From assembly GCF_000373245.1 (NCBI RefSeq), contig NZ_KB890756.1, positions 222,003 through 286,002 on the forward strand: a stretch of 64,000 nt of DNA. Reading direction: 5' to 3'. Of this stretch, positions 13,431 to 64,000 are shown piece by piece. The stretch comes from Echinicola pacifica DSM 19836. Its GTDB lineage: Bacteria > Bacteroidota > Bacteroidia > Cytophagales > Cyclobacteriaceae. Under the pieces are notes generated by a model, which did no database searches, was not told the origin of the DNA, and worked only from the letters and a program-made list of their open reading frames with translations. Each line of letters begins with the position of its first letter. The first letter of the stretch is position 1. Position numbers and translations under genes: made by a program.

Positions 13431-15539
13431 TTATCGCACAAAAGCGGCAGCAACACCACCGTCCACATTCAGAATATTACCCGTACTCTTGCTCAGGTCT
13501 CCGCCTACGAAGGCAAAAACCCCATTAGCAATATCATCCACACCGATAATTTCATTCAAAATGGTACGTTTGGCATAGAAGGCAGGAAGTTCTTCCACCG
13601 CAATACCATAGGCTTTGGCGCGGCCTTTGGCCCACTCGCCCTCCCAGATTTTACTTCCTTCGATGACCGCATCAGGGTTGACCACATTCACCCGGATCTT
13701 ATCCTTGCCCAGCTCAGCGGCTAATAGGCGGCTCATATGAACCTGTGCAGCCTTGGCCGTACCGTAGCCCACATTATTAGGACCAGATACCAAAGCATTT
13801 TTACTGGCGATATTGATGATATCTCCACCAAGTTTCTGTGCTCTTAGCACTTCCACACCTGCTTTAGAAACTGCAAATTGACCTTTGACAAGAATGTCTT
13901 GCAGCAAATCCCAATCCTGCTCAGAGGTCTGCTCGATCGGCTTAGAAATCGCCAAACCTGCGCAGTTTACGATGATATCCACCCCGCCAAACTTCAGTCC
14001 AGCGGCTTTATAGGCTTTCAGAATCTCATCACCCTTGGTCACATCCATCATCACTCCACCACCTACGTCCTTAGAGTAAGAACCTACCGCCTCATCGAGA
14101 CGCTCCTGGTTGATGTCTGTAATAAAGACACAGGCACCTTCTTTGGCCAGCTTGTCTGCGATGGCCTTGCCGATGCCGCCTGCTCCACCAGTCACCAGTG
14201 CGACCTTTCGGGATAGTGGCTGCTCTTTTGGCATACGCTGAAGTTTTGCTTCTTCCAGCAACCAATACTCAATGTCAAAAGCCTCCTGCAATGGCAGCGC
14301 AACGTATTCGGAAACCGCCTCCGCTCCTCGCATCACATTGATGGCATTGATATAAAATTCACTTGCCACTCGGGCCGTTTGCTTGTTTTTAGCATAGCTA
14401 AACATCCCTACCCCTGGCCAAATGATGATCACCGGGTTGGCATCACGAATTGCAGGACTATTGTCACGCTTATGATCTTCGTAATATTTCGTATAGTAAG
14501 CTCTATAATCCTCAAAATCCTTTTCCAACTTCGTCTTGATCTCCTCGGCATCGCTCAAGTCGATGTCCGCCGGGAAGTCCAATACCAAAGGACGGATCTT
14601 CGTTCTCAGGAAGTGATCAGGGCAGCTGGTACCTAGAGGCGCCAACTTCTCCATATCATGGCTATTGGCAAACTGCAATACGCGCTCATCATCGGTGAAG
14701 TGACCGACCATTCTATTAGACCCAGAAGCCAAGCCTCGGAGTACAGGGGCGATGATCGCAGCCTGGTCCAATCTCGCTTCAGGAGCCAGAGACTCCATAC
14801 GCTGACCGCCAAACACCGGACGCTTCTTGCCATAATTGTCCTCTAAGAACTGAGAAGCTTTGTCGATAACCTCAAGGCTATTGATATAACATTCATAAGC
14901 CGTATCTCCCCAGGTAAATAAACCGTGTCCGCCAAGCATGATGCCACGGATCCCCGGATTATCGGCAAGGGCTTTCTCCAATTGCAAAGCAAGGTCGAAG
15001 CCTGGCTTTTGCCATGGAACCCAAGCTATCTGTCCCTCAAAGAGCTCCTCGGTGATCTTCTCCCCATCCTTTGCCGCTGCTATCGCAATGGCCGCATCCG
15101 GATGAAGGTGATCGATATGACTGAAGGGAAGGAAAGCATGCAAGGGCGTATCGATAGAAGGCGCTTTGGAATCAAGGTCATAGATGCAATGATTAAACAA
15201 TCCCACCATCTCATCCTCAAATTCCAATCCGCGGTACACATTCTTCAGAGCATGTAATTTCTCAAGATAAAGTCCAGCCAGACCACTTTTGGTTAGGGTA
15301 CCGATGTCTCCACCAGAGCCTTTCACCCACATCACTTCCGTTTCCTTCTTCGTCAGCGGGTCGATCTCCGTAGTTTTACAACTTGTATTTCCCCCACCAT
15401 AATTGGTAATTCTAAGGTCCGAGCCCAAGATATTGGATCGGTAAATAAGAAGGGCTACCTCGTCTCCTTCCAGTTCCTGGGCTTTCTGCTCATCCCAGAG
15501 GTAGTTTACATGCTTAAAAGTACGTTGTGCTGTGCTCAT
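13431..15539 (-). CDS. rhaD: Bifunctional rhamnulose-1-phosphate aldolase / lactaldehyde dehydrogenase
   Basis: A 702-residue fusion. Residues 1 to about 430 form a class II aldolase/adducin domain, with FSHIDHLHPDA (His 141, 144, 146) and GGHGLFTWGDT. Residues about 443-702 form a short-chain dehydrogenase with TGGAGGIG at 450-457 and the S579, Y592, K596 triad. The aldolase splits rhamnulose 1-phosphate to DHAP and L-lactaldehyde, and the SDR part oxidises lactaldehyde, giving L-lactate in the known family. It heads the rhaD-rhaI-kinase unit, 126 bp downstream of the GH31 gene. The nearby lutABC could then use the lactate. Confidence 0.93.
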   Translation of the reverse strand: MSTAQRTFKHVNYLWDEQKAQELEGDEVALLIYRSNILGSDLRITNYGGGNTSCKTTEIDPLTKKETEVMWVKGSGGDIGTLTKSGLAGLYLEKLHALKNVYRGLEFEDEMVGLFNHCIYDLDSKAPSIDTPLHAFLPFSHIDHLHPDAAIAIAAAKDGEKITEELFEGQIAWVPWQKPGFDLALQLEKALADNPGIRGIMLGGHGLFTWGDTAYECYINSLEVIDKASQFLEDNYGKKRPVFGGQRMESLAPEARLDQAAIIAPVLRGLASGSNRMVGHFTDDERVLQFANSHDMEKLAPLGTSCPDHFLRTKIRPLVLDFPADIDLSDAEEIKTKLEKDFEDYRAYYTKYYEDHKRDNSPAIRDANPVIIIWPGVGMFSYAKNKQTARVASEFYINAINVMRGAEAVSEYVALPLQEAFDIEYWLLEEAKLQRMPKEQPLSRKVALVTGGAGGIGKAIADKLAKEGACVFITDINQERLDEAVGSYSKDVGGGVMMDVTKGDEILKAYKAAGLKFGGVDIIVNCAGLAISKPIEQTSEQDWDLLQDILVKGQFAVSKAGVEVLRAQKLGGDIINIASKNALVSGPNNVGYGTAKAAQVHMSRLLAAELGKDKIRVNVVNPDAVIEGSKIWEGEWAKGRAKAYGIAVEELPAFYAKRTILNEIIGVDDIANGVFAFVGGDLSKSTGNILNVDGGVAAAFVR

Positions 15540-15665
15540 TATTTTTTGATTTATTTATTTCAATTTAGTTATAATCTAAGGCGAATTTATTTTTTTTTGT
15601 TGACAATACTATCCTGTTCTGTACTGATAAGAACCACTCATATAAGTTATTGATCGTCAGTCATA

Positions 15666-18113
15666 TTATTCTAGGATAAAAGACAGGCTTGACTCAGGTG
15701 CTTTGGTCTGGGAAACATAGACGATTTGCTGCTCCGGATCATGGAAATAACCCGTTTTACCTGCCAAAACTTCCTGCAGCCCGATCGCTGCCAGGCTGTG
15801 ATCATTCACCCGCACCGCACTGAGCTGATCCTGAAGATGTACCTTGATGATATAGGCGCGCTTTCCGGGGTCATAGTCTCCCTGGCTCGCCCCTATGCTT
15901 ATATGTAAAGCTTCAGGATGCTCTTCCAGCTCCACCTTGGTGAGGCTATAGCCGCCCTCCATATACTTTTCGGACAGCCCGTCATCTTCAAATAATTCGT
16001 AGCTGGAATTCTCTCCCGGGAATATATCAAAGGTAATAGTGCCATAAGCTTGCTTATTATCATAAGCCACCTCATCCTGCATGGGGATGATGGCTCCAGC
16101 TTTGACGAAGAGGGGAAGTTTTTCGAGTGGACTCACGATGTTATAGTAATCCTTCCCTTGGTAGGCCGTACCATCCCAGTAATCGTACCAGGTGCCTTCA
16201 GGCAGATAGACGGTTCGTGTTTGGGCTTCTTTTTCCAGAACCGGGGCAACGATCATCTGATCGCCGAAATAATATTGGTCCTCCACCCCATAGGTATTAT
16301 AGTCTTCCTGATGCTCCAAAACAAGGGCCCGCATGATCGGCTTGCCGGTGCTATATTGCTGGAAGGCAGTGGTATAAATATAGGGAATTAACTGATAGCG
16401 AAGCTTATCATATTTGGTGAAGATCATTTCGGCCTCAGCGCCATAATTCCACGGCTCCTTATATCCAGGATGGTCCATACCGAAGACATGGGCGACGGGG
16501 CTAAACATCCCAAACTGCACCCAACGGGCAAAGAGCTCAGGGTCTGCCAAATGCTCAAATCCACCCATATTATGCGACCAATAGCCCACGCCTGAGAGTC
16601 CGATATTAATACCTGCTTTGATCACTGGCCCGTAATATTGCCACTCGCTAGGCCAGTCTCCTGCCCAGATGAAAGGGTATCGCTGGATGCCGGCATAGCC
16701 TTCGCGCGTATGATTCATGCCACGCATGCCGTTATATTCTTTAAATCTCTCATAAGGCGCCTTGGCATAGGCCACGGGGAAGACATTATGTAGCCGCTTT
16801 GCCTCCAGGGAGGTGGGACCTGTTTTATTACTTTCATTGGCCTGTCGGCCAAAAGCACTTCCTTCATCCGTTTTTAAGAACATCGCTCCGGTTTCGGCAA
16901 TGCGCATCACGCCATTTTCCCACCACCAATCTACAGCTTCTTCATCGAAGAAATTTACAAACTCACCAGGGTTATCCTCCTCGGGATATACATGGCCTTT
17001 GGCTCTGGCCTGATCCAGCAGGTCGAGCTCATTTCCATTGTCAAATCTCGGGCGGACATGCAGCCCCACCATATTTACATCCATGGCATATAGGCTGTCA
17101 AACATGCTCTGGGGATCCTTAAAAGTCTCCCTCCACTCAAAGGAAGTCGCTCCACTGCCTCCGTTTTTACCAAACATACGCCAGGTAGAATCCAGGTGAA
17201 GCACGTCAAAGGGAATGCCCTTTTCACGGTACCTTCTCGCCAGCTCCACCACATAGTGGGTAGAGGTCATCTCCTCATGTCCCCAGGTGCCCCCGCTATA
17301 AGTCCCCACATGCAGCCCATGGGCAAAGCGTGGTACTAAAGGTGACCTTCCTGTGAGCCCGGTATAATGGCTCAATAATCTGGAAAAGTCAGGTCCATAC
17401 ATAAAAAAGTAGTCCAGCTCACCGCCATCGGCCTGAAAGCGGATCTCCTCCGCAGCGCTGGACCCGAGGTCCCAATGACTGGCAAAGGTATTATGGAAGA
17501 AAATACCATAACCTCTGGTGCTCATAAAGAATGGCACAGGAGCATAGTTTGCTTCCAGCACATTATAGGCGCCGATGATATGTGGACGGCCAAGGCCTCT
17601 ACCCACATTCAGGCTCAGTTCCTTCCCGCGCTGATCCACAAAATCCATTCGTTCACCAAAGCCAAAGAAATGCTCATCAGCATGAAGGCTTTTGACGGCT
17701 CCCACGGCGGCATCTGATTGGAAAGCGCCCGACCCGCTGTCCCCTCCTTCGCCGGAAAGTAAGGTTCCCGACTGATCGTACACGGATATTTGCTGGTTTT
17801 CGTTGACAATCACCTTGATCCTTCCCGTATCAAAAGTATGTTGGCCATCTTTTTGGCTTTGTTTCACTTGGATCAGGGGAAACTCCTGCTGTGCCAGCAT
17901 ATAGGAGTATCGATCTTCAAAATTTCCGTCCCAGCTATATCGGGCCCTGAAGACTTCCGGGGAGTGGAACTCAAGAACTAAGACCCTTTGGCCGGAGCTT
18001 AGCACATAACTGTTTTTGGATTGGCTCAGGTTATTTGCGGTACTTTGGCCAAAAAGCTGGCCGGAATAGGCCAACAAAATGAAAAAAGCTGCAAAGAATT
18101 GTTTAGTATTCAT
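15666..18113 (-). CDS. Secreted GH31 family glycoside hydrolase
   Basis: Glycosidase of 815 residues with a signal peptide (MNTKQFFAAFFILLAYSGQLFGQ). The N-terminal galactose-mutarotase-like domain has HFFGFGERMD near 150. The catalytic barrel has D416 in MFLKTDEGSA as likely nucleophile and D486 in IWAGDWPSEW as acid/base; beta-sandwich domains follow. GH31 members act on alpha-glucosides, alpha-xylosides and others; KTDEG in place of the common KTDFG or KTDWG makes the exact linkage uncertain. It shares direction with the rhamnose genes and could free rhamnose-linked glycans for them, which is inference. Confidence 0.88.
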   Translation of the reverse strand: MNTKQFFAAFFILLAYSGQLFGQSTANNLSQSKNSYVLSSGQRVLVLEFHSPEVFRARYSWDGNFEDRYSYMLAQQEFPLIQVKQSQKDGQHTFDTGRIKVIVNENQQISVYDQSGTLLSGEGGDSGSGAFQSDAAVGAVKSLHADEHFFGFGERMDFVDQRGKELSLNVGRGLGRPHIIGAYNVLEANYAPVPFFMSTRGYGIFFHNTFASHWDLGSSAAEEIRFQADGGELDYFFMYGPDFSRLLSHYTGLTGRSPLVPRFAHGLHVGTYSGGTWGHEEMTSTHYVVELARRYREKGIPFDVLHLDSTWRMFGKNGGSGATSFEWRETFKDPQSMFDSLYAMDVNMVGLHVRPRFDNGNELDLLDQARAKGHVYPEEDNPGEFVNFFDEEAVDWWWENGVMRIAETGAMFLKTDEGSAFGRQANESNKTGPTSLEAKRLHNVFPVAYAKAPYERFKEYNGMRGMNHTREGYAGIQRYPFIWAGDWPSEWQYYGPVIKAGINIGLSGVGYWSHNMGGFEHLADPELFARWVQFGMFSPVAHVFGMDHPGYKEPWNYGAEAEMIFTKYDKLRYQLIPYIYTTAFQQYSTGKPIMRALVLEHQEDYNTYGVEDQYYFGDQMIVAPVLEKEAQTRTVYLPEGTWYDYWDGTAYQGKDYYNIVSPLEKLPLFVKAGAIIPMQDEVAYDNKQAYGTITFDIFPGENSSYELFEDDGLSEKYMEGGYSLTKVELEEHPEALHISIGASQGDYDPGKRAYIIKVHLQDQLSAVRVNDHSLAAIGLQEVLAGKTGYFHDPEQQIVYVSQTKAPESSLSFILE

Positions 18114-61444: not shown

Positions 61445-61605
61445 ATAATGTGTAAAAAATATGCTTGGCTGATGGAGAAGAGTTAAGGACAGTGCTTTCA
61501 ACGCGCACTATTTTTATTAAGCAAGCGTGTTGGTACTTGCATAGATTGATACTGATTTATTTTAAAACCCCTCACATTTCTTACACCAATGTTAGTCAGA
61601 ATGCT

Positions 61606-62487
61606 ATGACAACATCACTTAAATATATAATCGTATTTATTCTGACACTTTGGACTACCGAACTTTTAGCTAGTCCACAAATGCCAGACTATGTGATTTA
61701 TGGCAAAGATACAATTGCGACTTACCACCTTATTCTTGAACAATATTTACAACGACAAGACTCAGCAAATAGAGAACAACTTTATGGACTTGCATTTAGG
61801 GACGGGGCATCTTTTAATTGTTGGAGAGGTTATCAAGCAATTTATAAAATTGAGAACGACAGTTTATTCCTTGTTGACATTATAAATTGTGGTCAATTGG
61901 GAAATGAAAAAATTGATAAGGCTCAATCCTATGAAAAAATAAAATCCATTTTTGGGAACAAGTTAAAAAACGAAAAAGTTTTTTTTGATTGGTTTGACGG
62001 CTATGTAAATTTTCCTTTGACAAATAAAGTACTGAGGTGGGACGGAGTTTTTTACAAGATATTTGAGCGAGAAAAAGTTATCACTATTTCAAACGGACTT
62101 GTTGGTAGTAAGGAAGATTTTGACAACTATATTGACGACCCAAAAAGAATCGACAGACGAGATGGAAATAAGGTTTCTGACATCTTATTCAAAAAACTTA
62201 AAAAGACAAAATGGAAAAACAATAATGATTTTGACTGTGGTGACAAATATTTAGTGACAATAGACGAAAATGGAAATGTATCAAAAGTTAGAATGCTTCA
62301 TACTGACGAAGAAATTGAAAAATATTATGAGAAAGAAGAGTTTACTTTTTGTATTAGCAAAATGTTCAATTCTTTGAAAGACTTAAAATTTGACATAATT
62401 AAAGACAAGGGAATACCAATATCTGAAGACATTTATATTGAAACGTGGATTGAGGATAACGGAAAAATCAAAAACTGGACCTATTAA
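61606..62487 (+). CDS. AT-rich orphan protein, exported
   Basis: 293 residues from the ATG at 61606, which begins a signal peptide (MTTSLKYIIVFILTLWTTEL, cleavage near LLAS). The frame is open from 61465, but that part overlaps the intron border and looks non-coding. I recognise no domain; the C-terminal part has DKYLVTIDENGNVSKVRML and ETWIEDNGKIKNWTY, resembling TonB-C-like or energy-transducer tails only loosely. Codon use is far more AT-rich than all neighbours, a sign of recent transfer. Confidence 0.7.
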   Translation: MTTSLKYIIVFILTLWTTELLASPQMPDYVIYGKDTIATYHLILEQYLQRQDSANREQLYGLAFRDGASFNCWRGYQAIYKIENDSLFLVDIINCGQLGNEKIDKAQSYEKIKSIFGNKLKNEKVFFDWFDGYVNFPLTNKVLRWDGVFYKIFEREKVITISNGLVGSKEDFDNYIDDPKRIDRRDGNKVSDILFKKLKKTKWKNNNDFDCGDKYLVTIDENGNVSKVRMLHTDEEIEKYYEKEEFTFCISKMFNSLKDLKFDIIKDKGIPISEDIYIETWIEDNGKIKNWTY

Positions 62488-62677: not shown

Positions 62678-64000
62678 ATGGGTGTACGTAAAAATGCTAA
62701 ATTCCTAACCGCTTTGGAGAGGGAAGATTTTGTCAAAGCTTGTGTCTTAATGAAGGCAGATATCGTCAATCCTGGAGCTCCTGCTTCAGAGCAATACAGT
62801 AAATGGGATGAAAGTGTAGCATTGCACTTGATGATCCAACAAGGCCTGGCAGGAGGCTTGTCTGTAAACTTTGGCCATGGTGGCTCAGGTGCGTATAGTT
62901 TTTACAGTTGGCATCGCTATTATTTATATCAATTCGAACAGCAACTTCAATCCTATGTTCCTGGTGTCATGGTACCTTATTGGGACTGGACCGATCCAAG
63001 TTCTATTATGACTGATACATTCTTAGGGCCCGATGGCGGTACGGGCACTGTCGTCCAAACTGGATATTTCGCAGAAAGCGCCCCAGGCACTGGAAGCAAT
63101 ACAACCGCTTCTCCAGCGTGGTGGCCAGCAGGACTAAGCGGTTGGACATTACATTCAAGCTTCGGCTCTTTCTGGGATGGCGGACTGAAAAGAAGTATAG
63201 GCAGTGTATCTGGCTTACCTTCAGCCTCTGCGGTTAGTGCGGCTTTAGCTCTAACGACTTATTCTGCATTTCAAAACGCAGTTGAGAGCGGTAGTGGTTT
63301 ACCTTCTGGTCATAATCAAATGCACAATGGTATGCATATTTGGATAGGTGGACATATGGGAGACCCGACAGCTTCACCTTTTGATCCATTCTTCTATCTA
63401 CATCATTGCAATATAGACCGATTATGGGCTATGTGGCAGGTGGATGGTCATGACACTGTCTATCCCTCTTCGGGTGGCGACAACCAACACCATCGCACGG
63501 ACCTAATGTATCCTTGGGTAGGAACTACTGCAGGTTATGGCACTTCTTCCTCTATTTCCTCAAGTATTCCAATGCCTGACTATTCTGCTTTGGGTCCTCA
63601 GTCAAATGAAGACACCCTAGACTATAGGAATGCGTTTGGTTATACCTATGATTGTATCTCAGTTATAGGCATAGGACTTGACAGGACAGGCAGTATGAAT
63701 GGTCTGACGCCTGACCCAATGGTTGTAACAAATCCAGATGTCACCAAGTGGGAAGCCGCTAAGCGTGGAGTTTCAGCATTTCTGCAAGATTGTGAGACGG
63801 TTCAGGACAGTGGAACTATATATGTTACAGGAGGAGTTAAGACATTCAGAAGTTCAGGAGGAAATCAGTTTGACAATGTGTTTACAAGTCCAGGTTATGG
63901 ATTGATTAAGCAAGGGACATCCTTCAGCAAAGCCAGTTTCGATTCTTCAATCGCGGCCATGTCGCCTGGTGGAGGTACTCCATTGGCAGATGCTTTACTC
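62678..64000 (+). CDS. Tyrosinase fused to a von Willebrand A domain (3' truncated by window edge)
   Basis: The frame is open for 441 codons to the window end. Residues 1 to about 300 are a type-3 copper tyrosinase: CuA ligands H50, H67 (FGHGG) and H79 (SWHRYYLYQFE); CuB ligands H216 and H220 (NQMHNGMHIWIGG) and H242 in DPFFYLHHCNIDRLW, with the 4- and 22-residue spacing of bacterial enzymes. The part RKNAKFLTALEREDFVKA is the usual N-terminus, with no signal peptide. From about 325 a vWA domain begins: GIGLDRTGSMNG (D335, T337, S339 of a MIDAS site) and GGGTPLADALL (T434). The enzyme would oxidise phenols such as tyrosine; the vWA part may bind a partner. Confidence 0.9.
   Translation, partial: MGVRKNAKFLTALEREDFVKACVLMKADIVNPGAPASEQYSKWDESVALHLMIQQGLAGGLSVNFGHGGSGAYSFYSWHRYYLYQFEQQLQSYVPGVMVPYWDWTDPSSIMTDTFLGPDGGTGTVVQTGYFAESAPGTGSNTTASPAWWPAGLSGWTLHSSFGSFWDGGLKRSIGSVSGLPSASAVSAALALTTYSAFQNAVESGSGLPSGHNQMHNGMHIWIGGHMGDPTASPFDPFFYLHHCNIDRLWAMWQVDGHDTVYPSSGGDNQHHRTDLMYPWVGTTAGYGTSSSISSSIPMPDYSALGPQSNEDTLDYRNAFGYTYDCISVIGIGLDRTGSMNGLTPDPMVVTNPDVTKWEAAKRGVSAFLQDCETVQDSGTIYVTGGVKTFRSSGGNQFDNVFTSPGYGLIKQGTSFSKASFDSSIAAMSPGGGTPLADALL

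Follow-up and report, generated by a model that had tools for sequence, protein, structure and literature searches.

We found that a gene of Echinicola pacifica joins a tyrosinase core, a von Willebrand A (vWA) domain, a beta-sandwich, and an Ig-like tail in this order, with complete copper and MIDAS ligands. The C-terminal module has homologues on other tyrosinases and on an M14 peptidase, and its vWA domain is strongly conserved. We propose that this vWA-beta-sandwich-Ig module is the docking device of a leaderless bacterial tyrosinase (phenol/catechol oxidase), and we put the probability of this reading at about 0.45, slightly below even. A divalent metal in the MIDAS would bind an acidic side chain of a hypothetical partner protein or matrix, and the docking would hold the quinone-forming copper site of the presumed enzyme beside this partner. 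Phenols or tyrosines on or near the partner could then be oxidised, and may be cross-linked or darkened.

The reading frame and its domains

The analysed stretch of 64,000 nucleotides (the window) corresponds to G000:C18:222003-286002, where G000 is the E. pacifica genome, and L002 is a stretch of the same contig that runs past the window edge (Table 1). The frame starts with an ATG at 62678, is open to 64000, and runs onward on its own contig to a stop codon, giving 897 aa in total. This extension bears out an earlier note on the window, which had described one open frame with a complete set of copper ligands followed by a vWA domain. The tyrosinase core (residues 1-324) is followed by the vWA domain (about 327-545), the beta-sandwich, and the Ig-like tail, so that about 350 residues lie C-terminal of the vWA domain. 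Inspection of the 897-aa protein by eye showed no signal peptide, a point against docking. Apart from Tyrosinase, a Pfam search of the complete chain gave no match up to E 1.

Scanning genome contigs with the 577-aa post-core part gave 19 pattern matches, one of which was a relative, located on contig DRGL01000059.1 of a MAG that bears the label Pricia antarctica (L023:4023-6785). The Pricia protein (920 aa) is co-linear with the window protein end to end, with 57% identity over 921 aligned columns, and keeps the same order in one frame. Neither a stop codon nor a frameshift, which the earlier note had considered between the two parts, is present. Since two genomes share the same intact order, an assembly artefact is ruled out. 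For closer relatives, E. pacifica stood alone in 345 phylum, 395 class, and 11 genus genomes. The post-core part had no match in plasmids, the whole protein had none in phages, and viral contigs contained no relative.

Table 1. Coordinates of the fusion gene, its domains and motifs, and two neighbouring features. Positions are those of the window unless another stretch is named.
Feature	Position (strand)	Residues	Remarks
Tyrosinase-vWA gene	62678..64000 (+)	1-441 of 897	Stop past the window at G000:C18:287371-287373 (L002:3372-3374)
Tyrosinase core	62678..63649 (+)	1-324	PF00264; alignment with Priestia and Streptomyces tyrosinases; ends in Y-x-Y motif 322-324, read from the sequence
CuA ligands	62825..62914 (+)	H50, H67, H79	HisA1 H50 (62825-62827), HisA2 H67 (62876-62878), HisA3 H79 (62912-62914)
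CuB region	63284..63406 (+)	E203 to H243	Water-keeper E203; CuB ligands H216, H220, H243; HisB1+1 N217; seventh histidine H242
vWA domain, first part	63656..64000 (+)	327-441 of about 327-545	Remainder past the window edge
MIDAS motif DRTGS	63680-63694 (+)	D335-x-T337-x-S339	Thr in place of the first Ser of DxSxS
MIDAS Thr	63977-63979 (+)	T434	
MIDAS Asp	L002:2082-2084	D468	In LTDG, past the window edge
His/Cys-rich loop in beta-sandwich	L002:2487-2525	603-615	C611, H613, C614, C615 (and C642) kept in Pricia; possible metal site
Hypothetical gene between purU-like gene and fusion	61465-62487		GC 32%, third-position GC 0.294; no Pfam match; no match in the stretches of four congeners
Rhs array downstream	L002:4708-16228 (G000:C18 about 288707-300227) (-)		Two frames with RHS repeats, 14990-16228 and 13444-14973

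The Tyrosinase family (PF00264) covers residues 41-254 with an E value of 1.2e-39 and 137.4 bits against a cut-off of 22.6. The six copper histidines and the water-keeper Glu line up with the Priestia and Streptomyces enzymes. We aligned the active sites in nine rows, namely seven fused cores and the enzymes of Priestia filamentosa and of a Streptomyces clavuligerus plasmid. All nine rows contain the six copper-binding His residues, the water-keeper Glu, and the Asp that follows HisB3. HisB1+1 is Asn in eight of the nine and Gly in Microvirga, and the seventh histidine is kept in seven, being Val in Pricia and Leu in the fusion of locus L030. Roles have been assigned to the water-keeper, HisB1+1, and seventh-histidine positions (PMC11608171, partial text). 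The core is presumed to have monophenolase/diphenolase activity. In NCBIfam, the whole protein reached MelC2 with 118 of 450 bits and BagH_FevF with 89.9 of 630 bits, both below their cut-offs, and nothing else; the cut-out stretch had no match.

The window enzyme has no Cys close to HisA2 (H67), so no thioether bridge is expected. According to the partial text of PMC11608171, the biochemically characterised bacterial tyrosinases with a C-terminal domain all have this bridge, PvdP apart. The core therefore resembles the short Bacillus/Streptomyces kind, represented by MelC2 and BmTYR, with which it shares the active-site residues and the lack of a Cys near HisA2; its identity to the enzyme of Priestia filamentosa is 34%. 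In MelC2 and BmTYR, however, the chain ends after the core, and Streptomyces has a separate caddie protein (PMC9454253, partial text), whereas the window core of this short look carries about 570 further residues. We also considered the zymogen-type tyrosinase of V. spinosum as a model and rejected it: no Cys is near H67, and the post-core domain is a vWA domain, not the beta-rich lid (PMC11608171, partial text).

The earlier note had placed a linker of about 25 residues between the two parts, which was wrong. The tyrosinase fold ends near the Y-x-Y motif, and the vWA domain starts some two residues further on. In zymogen tyrosinases, the lid sits right after this motif (PMC9454253, partial text), and the position counts against docking. 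Because the vWA domain occupies the place of the lid, we rank next after docking a model in which the vWA domain, alone or with the beta-sandwich, replaces the C-terminal shielding domain or caddie and covers the copper site, so that the enzyme would be latent until cleavage or a shift of the MIDAS ligand. A search of the genome for the MelC1 caddie (PF06236) is in line with this model, as it gave no match, though positive controls were equally silent; Pfam found no caddie in the two adjacent frames either. The lidded enzymes that have been characterised nevertheless have the thioether bridge, PvdP apart (PMC11608171, partial text), which the window enzyme is expected to lack. We regard such a lid as unlikely, also in view of the relatives described below.

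The DRTGS motif and the distant Thr reported in the earlier note correspond to D335-S339 and T434, and the third element, D468, lies past the window edge. Thus, all MIDAS residues are present at the sequence level, and the MIDAS could be aligned with the relatives. In Pfam searches, the cut-out stretch scored below the cut-offs (VWA, 14.9 bits of 23.8; VWA_2, 14.4 of 27), and the cut-out Pricia vWA domain was still below them (VWA_2, 20.9 bits; VWA, 17.6 bits). The vWA assignment made in the earlier note therefore falls short with a single sequence and was rescued by profile-profile comparison with eight relatives. The relatives' profile (A4) consists of eight modules without the window or Pricia: five tyrosinase fusions, the M14 protein, and the module proteins L081 and L082. 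In hhalign, the window/Pricia profile matched A4 with Prob 97.85 and an E value of 6.6e-13, spanning the vWA domain, the sandwich, and the start of the Ig part, into which the alignment of the window protein reaches only a short way. A direct hmmsearch with A4 on frames of the fetched loci gave 1.1e-12 for the window (profile positions 85-306) and 7.4e-14 for Pricia (84-381), both past the first MIDAS motif. A search of 78 family genomes with the A4 alignment speaks against the assignment, since it listed no match in E. pacifica; given the 1.1e-12 of the direct search, we take this absence as a presumed miss of the loose first-look step.

Among PDB entries, A4 best matched the mussel protein PTMP1 (5.4e-21) and the CLCA1 vWA domain (3.1e-17), followed by the Ig domain of filamin-C (7.6e-8, columns 370-425) and anthrax toxin receptor 2 (3.7e-6). 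The matches to vWA domains of binding proteins (PTMP1, CLCA1, and anthrax toxin receptor 2) speak for docking. Against it, the window/Pricia vWA profile alone reached PTMP1 only weakly (E 6.4e-4 for the chain, 0.08 for the best stretch) and never CLCA1 up to E 10; three TRAP entries were matched at 0.19-0.33. AlphaFold models from two-sequence inputs had a mean pLDDT of 30.5 for the full protein and 31.5 for the vWA domain alone and were not used.

The vWA domain is conserved at least as well as the enzyme in both pairs that we compared. Between the window and Pricia, 155/219 vWA residues (70.8%) and 209/323 core residues (64.7%) are identical (Fisher p 0.16), and between loci L028 and L029 the numbers are 185/210 (88.1%) and 250/322 (77.6%). 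Stretches picked post hoc in the window/Pricia pair show identities of 39/42 in the first MIDAS loop (330-371), 14/20 in the second (426-445), 14/16 in the third (460-475), and 25/25 in the last helix (521-545). If the C-terminal part were a functionless, degenerate passenger, the sub-cut-off Pfam scores of the single-sequence vWA domain and the weakly conserved Ig-like tail (59/172 identical between the window and Pricia) would be accounted for. We consider such a passive fusion very improbable because of the vWA conservation, and all MIDAS residues are kept. Docking is the simplest account because the MIDAS is complete, the first MIDAS loop and the last helix are well kept, and the vWA domain is conserved no less than the enzyme.

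The beta-sandwich contains a His/Cys-rich loop, and because of it we consider a third possibility, in which the loop and C642 bind copper and pass it to the tyrosinase as a caddie in cis, with the vWA domain as a scaffold only. The Cys and His residues named in Table 1 are kept in Pricia, and the loop is absent from the aligned L028-L030 fusions. It is thus seen in two sequences only, the loop-less fusions share the same active site, and it could as well bind zinc or form disulphides. Copper loading of this kind appears improbable to us.

Other carriers of the module

Tyrosinases were found in 19/196 genomes of the family sample and in 15/340 genomes of the phylum sample. Fusions were counted in locus flanks of up to 1500 bases, one frame (L046) running off its stretch. 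Within this scope, the module profile matched a tyrosinase frame in four of the 19 family genomes with tyrosinase, E. pacifica, G091 (L028), G134 (L029), and G163 (L030), the last three of which were first seen by eye and match by construction since they are rows of the module profile. In the phylum sample, E. pacifica was the only genome with such a match. The VWA score of L029 is above the cut-off (25.9 bits), and the VWA_2 scores of L028 (26.0 of 27 bits) and L030 (17.6 of 27 bits) are below it.

In genome G075 (L006/L032), another long tyrosinase in a 727-aa frame is followed by repeats that resemble FG-GAP repeats, and the vWA-module profile has no match there. The gene at G174:C28:281308-281764 (L019/L054) is broken by a stop codon, with its halves in different frames. 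At L031 (G013:C2), the tyrosinase has a long N-terminal part in a frame of 748 aa, and the frame beside it may resemble LodA-type oxidases.

Plasmid records matching the window's tyrosinase numbered 90. A search with the part of L029 that spans the extra domain to the Ig part found five plasmid records, and three of these matches extended over at least 80% (Caballeronia, Haloarcula, and Microvirga); two of these three are tyrosinases, and the third is an M14 carboxypeptidase. The fusions of the archaeon Haloarcula sp. JP-L23 (QIO24726.1; VWA_2 42.2 bits, VWA 24.7 bits) and Microvirga ossetica (WP_099514959.1; VWA_2 35.0 bits, VWA 30.0 bits) also have Tyrosinase matches above the Pfam cut-off; their public labels are 'VWA domain-containing protein' and 'tyrosinase family protein', respectively. 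Like the window protein, they consist of a tyrosinase core and then the vWA-beta-sandwich-Ig module. Unlike it, they have an extra domain between the core and the vWA domain, and their module is only remotely alike. This extra domain of about 100 residues is also present in L028, L029, and L030. It parts the core from the vWA domain, which argues against the vWA domain as a lid. The genes of Haloarcula and Microvirga are preceded by small frames that look alike, but the E value is 0.036 for one pair, and the Microvirga frame matches its own plasmid only.

The M14 carboxypeptidase of Caballeronia insecticola (L087:4891-7782) has the same vWA-sandwich-Ig module on a zinc peptidase instead of a tyrosinase (PF00246, 178.6 bits; VWA_2, 45.3 bits; VWA, 32.1 bits). 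Its module is 35% identical to that of Haloarcula and 39% to that of L030, and the latter two are 37% identical to each other. On the plasmid, the gene adjoins a divergent frame with weak, below-cut-off metzincin matches (L087:1885-7782). Module proteins without tyrosinase, their N-terminal parts being judged by eye, are L081, L082 (Ig-type), L084 (repeats; the module matches in pieces), and L111, in which a signal peptide and, at the C-terminus, a membrane helix are apparent by eye.

The earlier note had suggested that the vWA part could dock the enzyme or control its activity by metal binding. We favour docking because an unrelated enzyme, the M14 peptidase, carries the same module; the module's job is therefore unlikely to be tied to copper chemistry. 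We give less weight to control by metal binding, since tyrosinase is not the only enzyme with this module; the service to a peptidase also counts against the lid model. An accessory common to unrelated enzymes would fit docking better than control of the copper site. On the other side, the direct-fusion branch consists of two sequences only, the window and Pricia, and the seventh histidine is Val in Pricia.

Genomic setting

The fusion gene was found in one of the 11 genus genomes, E. pacifica only, whereas the upstream purU-like gene (named by eye) was found in all 11. Synteny with four of the 10 congeners (16 kb each) extends over the upstream helicase, the purU-like gene, or both, and then ends; the E. 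pacifica frames after the purU-like gene have no match in these 16-kb stretches. The third-position GC is 0.344 in the fusion gene, compared with 0.555 in the helicase and 0.498 in the purU-like gene. Because of the genus-wide patchiness, the synteny break, and the setting of low third-position GC, we conclude that the fusion gene is accessory, as the earlier note had stated for this neighbourhood, and that it was probably acquired. The mobile cargo that the earlier note considered would be one possibility.

A DUF3223-like frame (20.4 bits, cut-off 21) starts 20 bases after the fusion stop. In the Rhs array downstream (Table 1), several short frames start, as judged by eye, in a 'DPL' stretch of the tip-like kind, and one has Colicin-DNase and WHH matches. 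This Rhs core with its tip-like frames, together with the patchy distribution of the gene, would suit a conflict effector, that is, quinone-producing cargo of a toxin neighbourhood that is delivered to rivals, with the vWA-Ig part serving in delivery or as the receptor part. Against this role, Pfam showed neither Rhs nor PAAR in the protein itself at E values up to 1, we identified no immunity gene, and inspection by eye of 11.8 kb around the Pricia gene showed no toxin array. We judge an effector role to be somewhat less probable still than copper loading.

Within 5 kb of the Pricia fusion (L023:7470-11633) are genes for a TonB-dependent receptor, an HMA-like protein (20.6 bits, below the cut-off of 24.8), and another tyrosinase, which ends in a T9SS sorting tail (Por_Secre_tail, 34.7 bits). 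The neighbourhood is possibly a copper/phenol-oxidase cluster, and the receptor and the HMA-like protein would be in keeping with copper loading by the loop.

Origin of the fusion and relation to known systems

The tyrosinase tree contained 30 rows: the seven fused cores, two named references, the second Pricia tyrosinase, and 20 chosen from the 49 loci L032-L080, which include many double rows and fragments. The fused cores fall in an 18-row set (98/98) together with enzymes of the Bacillus/Streptomyces type. Their clustering exceeds chance (four changes; 4/500 shuffles as low), yet they do not form one clade. The AU test of a single clade of the seven fused cores gave p 0.0326, or 0.0504 without the long-branched L030. 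In the module tree, which has 11 rows, one set (98/98) unites the M14 module with five fused modules; the window and Pricia stand apart on a very long branch (3.78), and a meeting of long branches is flagged. The AU test of the module tree against one tyrosinase clade gave p 0.0181. Both AU tests lie near the threshold, and their trees have few rows and long branches. The tests weakly reject a single origin of the fusion, and the trees give a hint, no more, of an independent fusion of the module to tyrosinase.

Bacterial tyrosinases have been described as bare cores, caddie-bound cores, cores with a beta-rich lid, and oddities such as PvdP (PMC9454253 and PMC11608171, partial texts). The term von Willebrand is absent from the partial texts of these two general accounts of tyrosinase architecture, and one of them, a long review, does not contain 'vWA' either. 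A search of the open-access literature, judged by titles and abstracts and with subscription papers outside its scope, found no published description of a tyrosinase-vWA combination. The statement in the earlier note that the arrangement has no standard description stands to that extent, but the arrangement is not unique, being shared with G091, G134, G163, Microvirga, and Haloarcula.

CLCA1 is similar in having a catalytic domain, a vWA domain with MIDAS, a beta-rich domain, and an Ig/FnIII-type domain (PMC6851300, partial text), an order seen at the sequence level in the window's relatives. The difference is the catalytic domain, which is a zincin in CLCA1 and a copper oxidase in the window protein. 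Membership of the CLCA family was rejected, as the window protein has no CLCA_N match (Pfam up to E 1). CLCA1 has been suggested to bind TMEM16A through its MIDAS (PMC6851300, partial text), a parallel that speaks for docking. Prokaryotic CLCA proteins with a patchy distribution have been described in PMC3650047, in whose partial text the word tyrosinase is absent. Mussel PTMP1 resembles the window protein in its vWA domain, but no tyrosinase was matched in it, and two vWA stretches were matched in its chain.

Taken at sequence level, a broader reading is possible but doubtful: a prokaryotic CLCA-like docking module (vWA-beta-sandwich-Ig) may have been joined to unrelated enzymes and, independently at least twice, to tyrosinase, directly in the window and Pricia and via the extra domain in the Bacteroidota relatives, Microvirga, and Haloarcula. 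If true, the CLCA plan of an enzyme with vWA, beta-rich, and Ig-type domains would have been assembled with different enzymes in prokaryotes. In the mussel byssus, DOPA made by tyrosinase and vWA matrix proteins act together. Recurrent fusion, if true, would point to selection for quinone chemistry at a vWA-bound partner and would make these proteins a microbial counterpart of the mussel byssus. MIDAS-controlled docking, if true, would be a built-in aiming of a copper oxidase at a chosen surface, which may be of interest for cross-linking and adhesives.
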